DNA from: Pilaira anomala
Lineage: Eukaryota; Mucoromycota; Mucoromycetes; Mucorales; Mucoraceae
Direction: 5' to 3'
Length of the DNA stretch: 13,097 nt
NCBI GenBank assembly: GCA_025716855.1
Contig: JAIXMQ010000205.1
Span: 1 to 13,097, forward strand
Shown: in pieces, positions 5,611 through 6,343 of the stretch
How the letters are laid out: each line of letters opens with the position of its first letter
Numbering within the stretch: position 1 is the first letter of the stretch
The notes under the pieces: generated by a model
The model's input: only the letters and a program-made list of their open reading frames with translations
What the model was told of the DNA's origin: nothing
Databases searched by the model: none
Program-made: the position numbers and the translations under genes

Positions 5611-6343
5611 GACTGAATCAATTGCGTATACTTTACCCTGCTTCACCAATCAAGACAGGATTGTTTTTAGTTCGACGAGCCAAGCTGTATATAATATATT
5701 TAGTCTCGCATTATTCAAAGGTATATATATGTTTGGTCACTTACACTACAAAAAAGTAAAATCAGTAATTAAGCTTTTACGTTATGGTTATATATACTCA
5801 TATTCTTACCTTCCAAAGTTCTTCTTATTTCTTCATCACGTCCAATGACAGGGTCTATTTACCCTCAATATGTTAAAATGATTCAAAAAAATATGCAAAA
5901 AAAAAGTCCGATACTTACCAAGCTTTCCTTTCTCAGCCATTGCAGTAAGGTCAATACCCTAGAATGAAATTCGAGTCAGTTTATTTATCTAGCAACAACC
6001 AGAAAAAATTAGAAGCTGTTTTTTTTCTTACAAATTGTTCAAGTGGGCTCTTTTGTTCTTGTTGTTGATTAGGATTCATACGAAGTCCTGGCCCACCTTG
6101 GTCTTTTTTTTTTGAAAATTATAAGTATATGCAGATACACGAGATTTTTTTTTTTTTTTTACCTGCATAAAATCGTTTACTACCATAGTAGACAGCCAAT
6201 TTCCAAGGTTGTTGTCTTTTGAGTACAGTCATAGTAGCCACAGACAACGTTGATTTGATAGTAGGTTTTCCATTACGTTGAATAAGGGTAGAAAATTGAC
6301 GTAAATTCGCTCTACTGAGCGTACGTTGTGGTAATTTCAACAT
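3332..6343 (-). CDS. HSP78: Mitochondrial Hsp78 / ClpB-type AAA+ disaggregase
   Basis: This is a hexameric ATPase of the mitochondrial matrix that pulls polypeptides out of aggregates together with matrix Hsp70. Nine minus-strand exons: 6163-6343, 6032-6102, 5919-5958, 5810-5854, 5745 (one nucleotide), 5637-5684, 5521-5545, 5214-5462, 3332-5161. They total 2490 nt, 829 aa; yeast Hsp78 is about 811. The start at 6343 follows an in-frame TAA. The first 60 residues hold no Asp or Glu and many Arg/Lys, as expected of a presequence. There is no Clp-N domain, which separates Hsp78 from Hsp104. NBD1: GEAGVGKT 126-133, pore loop KYRGEF 170-175, Walker B with D198/E199. Coiled-coil M-domain: about 325-437. 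NBD2: GPTGVGKT 525-532, pore loop GYVGHEEGG 572-580, LLDE ending at 598, Arg finger R678, sensor-2 GARPLNR 735-741. The tail is a run of Lys and Glu. All introns lie in the first quarter of the CDS. Confidence 0.96.
5572..5609. repeat. 38-nt homopolymer T tract (poly-A in HSP78 intron 6)
   Basis: Thirty-eight consecutive T on the plus strand lie within the 91-nt intron 6 (5546-5636) of HSP78, so about 40% of that intron is poly-A in the transcript. It is the longest homopolymer in the window and likely variable in length. It explains why this intron is longer than its neighbours. Confidence 0.95.
5745..5745 (-). other. HSP78: Predicted single-nucleotide exon of HSP78
   Basis: Minus-strand sequence reads TTTTTTGTAG|T|GTAAGTGACC: a strong acceptor and a perfect GTAAGT donor separated by one T. 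Upstream intron 4 (5746-5809, 64 nt) begins GTAAGA. Downstream intron 5 (5685-5744, 60 nt) holds a GACTAAAT branch-like site and ends TACAG. The T joins a G from 5810 and a C from 5684 to give GTC, Val113, in LEVLARRTKNNPVLIGEAG, where ClpB proteins have V or I. Splicing directly from 5809 to 5685 shifts the frame and hits TGA after 11 codons. Other donors I tried within the 125 nt also failed. Confidence 0.8.

Follow-up and report, generated by a model that had tools for sequence, protein, structure and literature searches.

The 13,097-nt window of DNA from the mould Pilaira anomala (Mucorales) analyzed here carries an HSP78 gene on the minus strand and a GUF1-type gene on the plus strand. 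Coordinates are those of the window, and the HSP78 exons were obtained by conceptual splicing.

3332..6343, minus strand: HSP78 coding region, nine exons, stop codon included
6343-6163, 6102-6032, 5958-5919 and 5854-5810, minus strand: HSP78 exons 1-4
5745, 5684-5637, 5545-5521, 5462-5214 and 5161-3332, minus strand: HSP78 exons 5-9
6555-9424, plus strand: GUF1-type gene, 15 exons, divergent from HSP78, product of 660 aa

The 660-aa product matches translation elongation factor 4 (LepA), scoring 823.7 bits where the cut-off is 533.9, and we take this elongation factor gene to be GUF1; its 14 introns measure 53-74 nt. An open frame at 724-1311 on the minus strand matches the SURF4 family (PF02077; E 6e-67) over profile positions 74-267 of 267. 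Because this match starts at profile position 74, the gene should have a further exon upstream, past 1311.

The nine HSP78 exons add up to 2490 nt with the stop codon and encode 829 amino acids. The translation is identical, residue for residue, to the deposited 829-aa P. anomala protein (100% identity, Val113 included). The exon total of 2490 nt and the GTC codon for Val113 agree with the original prediction. In a Pfam profile search, AAA, AAA_lid_9, AAA_2 and ClpB_D2-small were all found in this product above their cut-offs, and Clp_N gave no match at E 0.001. The best model was ClpB (residues 70-771, 1134.8 bits, which is below that model's bacterial cut-off of 1232.1), and structures of ClpB and Hsp104 were matched. 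With two AAA+ modules, ClpB-type sequence and no Clp N-terminal domain, the predicted product has the features of an Hsp78/ClpB chaperone; the proteins of relatives bear the source name 'heat shock protein 78, mitochondrial'. Six listed Mucorales HSP78 models (P0018, P0037, P0048, P0049, P0051 and P0067) contain PF01263, presumably aldose 1-epimerase, as a second domain, perhaps through merging with a neighbouring gene. Within the P. anomala gene, intron 6 holds 38 consecutive T at window positions 5572-5609 (38 A on the coding strand), and this homopolymer makes it a likely place of length variation.

Between the codons for E112 and L114 the genome has 125 nt. These had been proposed to consist of a 64-nt intron, a single T and a 60-nt intron, a division that conceptual splicing bears out.

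5810..5854, minus strand: exon 4, 45 nt, ending ...TTTGGAAG at 5810 (...GAA G), exit phase 1
5746..5809, minus strand: predicted intron 4, 64 nt, GTAAGAATAT...TTTTTTGTAG, starting GTAAGA
5745..5745, minus strand: predicted exon 5, the single nucleotide T, at the middle position of the G/T/C codon for Val113
5685..5744, minus strand: predicted intron 5, 60 nt, GTAAGTGACC...TTATATACAG (GTAAGT...TATACAG)
5637..5684, minus strand: exon 6, 48 nt, beginning CTTGGCTCGT, entry phase 2 (the C of Val113), then LARRTKNNPVLIGEAG

Exon 4 closes with GAA G and exon 6 opens with CTTGG, so a T must lie between them if the deposited Val113 is to be encoded. This T sits in the context TTTTTTGTAG-T-GTAAGT, with AG before it, GT after it and two complete introns around it. 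Removal of all 125 nt at once (5809-5685) leaves 2489 nt and gives 11 foreign codons followed by TGA at codon 124, in agreement with the earlier expectation of a TGA within about 11 codons. Retention of intron 4 leads to a stop at codon 126, and retention of intron 5 to a stop at codon 114. No other internal AG...GT exon has a length of 1 modulo 3 (exons of 22 nt or less, flanks of 40 nt or more). The T is thus required by the reading frame and by a conserved residue. The predicted junction of exon 4, T and exon 6 reads GAAGTCTTGG; contrary junctions would read GAAGCTTGG or GAAGGCTTGG. The nonamer AGTGTAAGT occurs at 5739-5747 (minus strand) and again at 4130-4138 (minus strand) and 10038-10046 (plus strand), three copies against 0.20 expected in shuffles; the copy at 4130-4138 falls within HSP78 exon 9, where it is read in frame as Ser-Val-Ser.

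To score the splice sites, weight matrices were built solely from 20 curated reference introns of 52-91 nt, 14 from the neighbouring GUF1 gene and 6 from HSP78, the longest being the 91-nt HSP78 intron 6. An intron set self-trained on open frames of 200 kb consisted of 26 noisy candidates and was replaced by this curated set. The intron 4 acceptor scores 6.74 bits, equal to or above 14 of the 20 reference introns, and the intron 5 donor scores 8.44 bits, equal to or above all 20 reference donors. Intron 4 contains a branch-like CTGAT whose A lies 17 nt before the 3' end. A YTRAY branch word is absent from intron 5 in the window tested, as it is from 5 of the 20 reference introns.

We then asked how often such an arrangement arises by chance, using 15,990 windows of 125 nt taken in 25-nt steps on both strands of 200 kb of this genome. 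An AG-N-GT flanked by 45 nt or more on either side was present in 1,285 of these windows, and in none did a one-base AG-N-GT score as high as the observed pair, with matrices drawn from 20 introns. When exons of 1, 4, 7 or 10 nt were allowed, four windows reached the observed level in the summed score, but no window did so in both scores. In first-order Markov simulations of 125 nt, run with an intron set in which GUF1 intron 1 was misplaced, 4 of 20,000 reached the summed score of the one-base exon. These results bear on a rival reading with a single ordinary intron, an assembly in which a T at the border of exon 4 or exon 6 is missing, and a coincidental TAG-T-GTAAGT. A single missing base would likewise restore the frame, but a pair of this strength appeared by chance in 0 of 15,990 windows, and an intron of 125 nt would exceed every one of the 20 reference introns. 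We regard this reading as very unlikely.

The deposited proteins of relatives were examined at residue 113. We classified 218 different proteins, drawn from the best 120 matches of each of three protein searches, the 218th being the query itself (V); subphylum labels were assigned by genus name and are our assumption. Among the matches listed, the 52 Mucoromycotina models included 15 with clean Val, 9 with clean Gly, 15 with an insert and 1 with a deletion, and in 12 of the 52 one or both flanks were missing or garbled. The 18 Glomeromycotina models listed comprised no clean Val, 1 Gly, 4 inserts, 1 deletion and 12 flank problems. Clean Val was found in 28 of 28 listed Mortierellomycotina models. 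Other fungi (23 listed) showed 18 clean V, 1 clean I and 2 inserts; a further 2 were called 'flank garbled' by pattern and are V and I by inspection. The 75 listed bacterial, other or unnamed proteins had I in 39 and V in 34, with 2 unplaced by pattern and no Gly, so that the expectation of V or I at this position holds in 73 of 75. Among 21 listed open reading frames from unnamed contigs, 10 had clean V, 10 were without both flanks, and 1 was 'flank garbled' but has I. E-V-L is read by two unbroken open reading frames, P0004 (828 aa, contig of 2,627 nt) and P0020 (801 aa, contig of 3,315 nt), which are probably transcripts of relatives. The original prediction that gene predictors would miss the exon fails for the P. 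anomala deposit, in which Val113 is present, and holds for many of the relatives' models.

The Gly models raise the question of whether a single intron with non-canonical borders keeps an extra G, from GT or AG, and yields Gly113. Gly is deposited in 9 Mucoromycotina models and 1 Glomeromycotina model among the matches listed, but it is found in 0 of the 75 bacterial, other or unnamed homologues and 0 of the 28 Mortierellomycotina homologues listed, and the P. anomala deposit has Val. Moreover, deposited models of Phycomyces blakesleeanus disagree at this residue, one form having Val, another Gly and a third an insert. A modeller forced to place one extra transcribed base on the G of GT or AG would also produce Gly, and the Gly models fit this explanation. 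Retention of a G is therefore highly improbable in our view.

The irregularity at residue 113 was compared with other intron positions in the same listed models, a join being called clean when 15 residues aligned without gaps and at least 8 were identical, with Gly counted as clean. At introns 3, 6, 7 and 8, respectively, 43, 41, 48 and 52 of 52 Mucoromycotina models were clean, versus 25 of 52 at residue 113. The corresponding numbers for Glomeromycotina were 13, 13, 18 and 18 of 18, versus 1 of 18, and for Mortierellomycotina 28, 28, 28 and 27 of 28, versus 28 of 28. An exon control at residue 400, one of three, was clean in 50 of 52 Mucoromycotina, 15 of 18 Glomeromycotina and 6 of 28 Mortierellomycotina models, and is thus poor in the last group.

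The aberrant models themselves carry a phase signature. The upstream flank is present in 59 of the 70 listed Mucoromycotina and Glomeromycotina models, and after TLE/TIQ 19 of these have V and 25 have G, with A in 10, E in 3 and D in 2, which corresponds to a GNN codon in all 59. All 40 non-Val models therefore have a G-starting codon here (nominal chance ~1e-27, the models not being independent, with several per genus), which indicates that the upstream exon ends one base into a codon, with G. On the downstream side, 27 listed models retain the flank but have an aberrant join. Ser or Arg precedes LARR/LSRR in 19 of them (nominal p 2e-8, again for models that are not independent), and the other eight have V (2), T (2), Y, E, I and N. 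Ser or Arg would arise when an upstream acceptor is chosen and the true ...AG-N is read through as AGY or AGR. These residues thus suggest that the downstream exon starts at codon position 3, with one base missing between the two exons. Individual models may be read in the same way: EVWPEEQKIIL in Cunninghamella echinulata (P0039) would be LARRTKNNP one base out of frame, as if a base had been skipped, and Apophysomyces ossiformis (P0017, ITLVLARR) and Parasitella (P0011, FMIVLARR) would fit an intron tail ending in A-G, a T and the next exon. That the same phase mismatch occurs in models of many other species also argues against a base missing from the P. anomala assembly.

Because the relatives' models show phase-1 exit and phase-2 entry, the one-base exon is probably not private to P. 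anomala. With phases deduced from proteins, it was likely present before the Mucoromycotina/Glomeromycotina split. We consider it probable that the exon has been kept since the common ancestor of these two groups, which would make it the most widely shared one-nucleotide exon known in fungi, and that it is mis-modelled in most of the models of these groups examined. The clean Val models (15 of the 52 listed Mucoromycotina) are uninformative on introns, and the clean Mortierellomycotina models allow either loss in that group or an origin later than their branch. Inserts that start with V and end with R are also present at residue 113 in Calcarisporiella (P0066) and Spizellomyces (P0208); these may reflect a deeper origin or unrelated introns. 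In collections of prokaryote and virus contigs, neither the intron-preceded LARRTKNNPVLIG exon nor the DEACSKLRLQQESKP motif had a match.

Two further ways of removing the 125 nt were considered. In the first, a single intron is bounded by different canonical sites or by AT-AC, which alters the protein locally. Over a wider stretch, 21 stop-free single-intron solutions (GT-AG, GC-AG or AT-AC) exist, and analogous solutions have been deposited for some relatives. However, all 21 insert, delete or replace residues of TLE-V-LARRTKNNP, and the acceptors of the GT-AG and GC-AG options, to which the scoring applied, reach -3.0 to 2.9 bits versus 2.81 to 9.19 bits in the 20 references; we find such a solution exceedingly improbable. 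It is hardly credible that introns 4 and 5 form a [D1,2] stwintron, a type described as two abutting introns removed consecutively and as common in some fungi (PMC12403724, PMC9024468), since the TGTAAGT that follows intron 4 would create the outer donor GTGTAA and the product GAA/CTTGG would be 2488 nt long, out of frame and short of two bases, the G and the T, both of which are needed. The sequence thus does not show what marks a [D1,2] stwintron, an outer donor interrupted after its first base with the frame preserved once both introns are out. A recursive splice site without an exon was also rejected, since AG and GT are separated by one base that the reading frame requires.

Taken together, the reading frame, the splice signals, the intron lengths, the V/I residue, the deposited protein and the phase mismatch in relatives fit and support the two-intron, one-base-exon interpretation. 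At the level of sequence, this confirms the predicted one-nucleotide exon in P. anomala HSP78. We put the probability at roughly 93% that the 125 nt are spliced as introns of 64 and 60 nt around an exon consisting of T5745, the middle base of the Val113 codon.

Since introns 4 and 5 both fall within the 52-91 nt range of the window's other introns and have strong sites, each would be recognized across itself, by intron definition. With a single base separating the facing sites, these would be used sequentially, and the introns would probably be removed one after the other. If intron 4 left first, GAAGT/GTAAGT would remain, and if intron 5 left first, TTTTGTAG/TCTTGG would remain; each provides a usable partner, so either order would be possible. 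Joining of the outer sites would remove a 125-nt intron and introduce a premature stop, a skip that intron length limits would disfavour. For APC11, Guo and Liu argue for intron definition combined with stepwise removal (PMC4674806).

The HSP78 exon would mean that a one-base exon occurs in a chaperone gene that is conserved and has a housekeeping role. Should the phase signature hold, the exon has persisted through a long fungal history, as those of APC11 and VPS55 have among land plants. The exon would account for the breakdown of HSP78 models at a single residue in Mucorales and arbuscular mycorrhizal fungi, and its orthologues would form a natural series in which to study how the spliceosome handles sites one base apart. 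The signature, in which the upstream exon is followed by a GNN codon and AG-N is read as Ser or Arg downstream, would also offer a protein-only means of detecting further cases in annotated genomes.

The original prediction pointed to one known case in an Arabidopsis gene. Arabidopsis APC11 is not the only published example: others include plant VPS55 and Fusarium CYP621A, and a placozoan mitochondrial case is reported as well (PMC5436844). Among the literature matches listed, in which subscription papers are thinly covered, no one-base exon was reported for HSP78 or Mucoromycota, which is weak evidence of absence. The closest parallel is the CYP621A exon, which its authors call the first in a fungal gene; an over-long 'intron' of 139 nt was the clue there, and SRA reads confirm the exon (PMC12940212). 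As in HSP78, exit is in phase 1 and entry in phase 2, and the base provides the middle position of a codon within a conserved motif; in both genes an apparent intron of excessive length drew attention to it, and many orthologues are on record for CYP621A. Unlike HSP78, CYP621A is an ascomycete P450 gene with G as its read-confirmed base (AG-G-GT), whereas the HSP78 exon is a T predicted from sequence in a Mucorales mitochondrial-type chaperone gene. The Hypoxylaceae [D1,2] stwintrons resemble the predicted introns 4 and 5 in being abutting U2-type introns removed consecutively (PMC12403724, PMC9024468), but their parts have no exonic base between them, where HSP78 has one coding base. The plant APC11 exon is likewise a single base between two ordinary introns; it is constitutive, kept over land plants and absent from reference annotations (PMC4674806, PMC8831610), and, unlike that of HSP78, it belongs to a plant gene and has been proven by transcripts and reporter constructs. 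VPS55 shares with HSP78 a strong donor (GTRAGT in VPS55) after a single exonic base, which in VPS55 is conserved and usually unannotated, but it is a plant gene, and some lineages make transcripts with and without the exon (PMC8831610). One-nucleotide exons are thus a known kind; what is new here is another gene, another fungal phylum and a broad phase signature.
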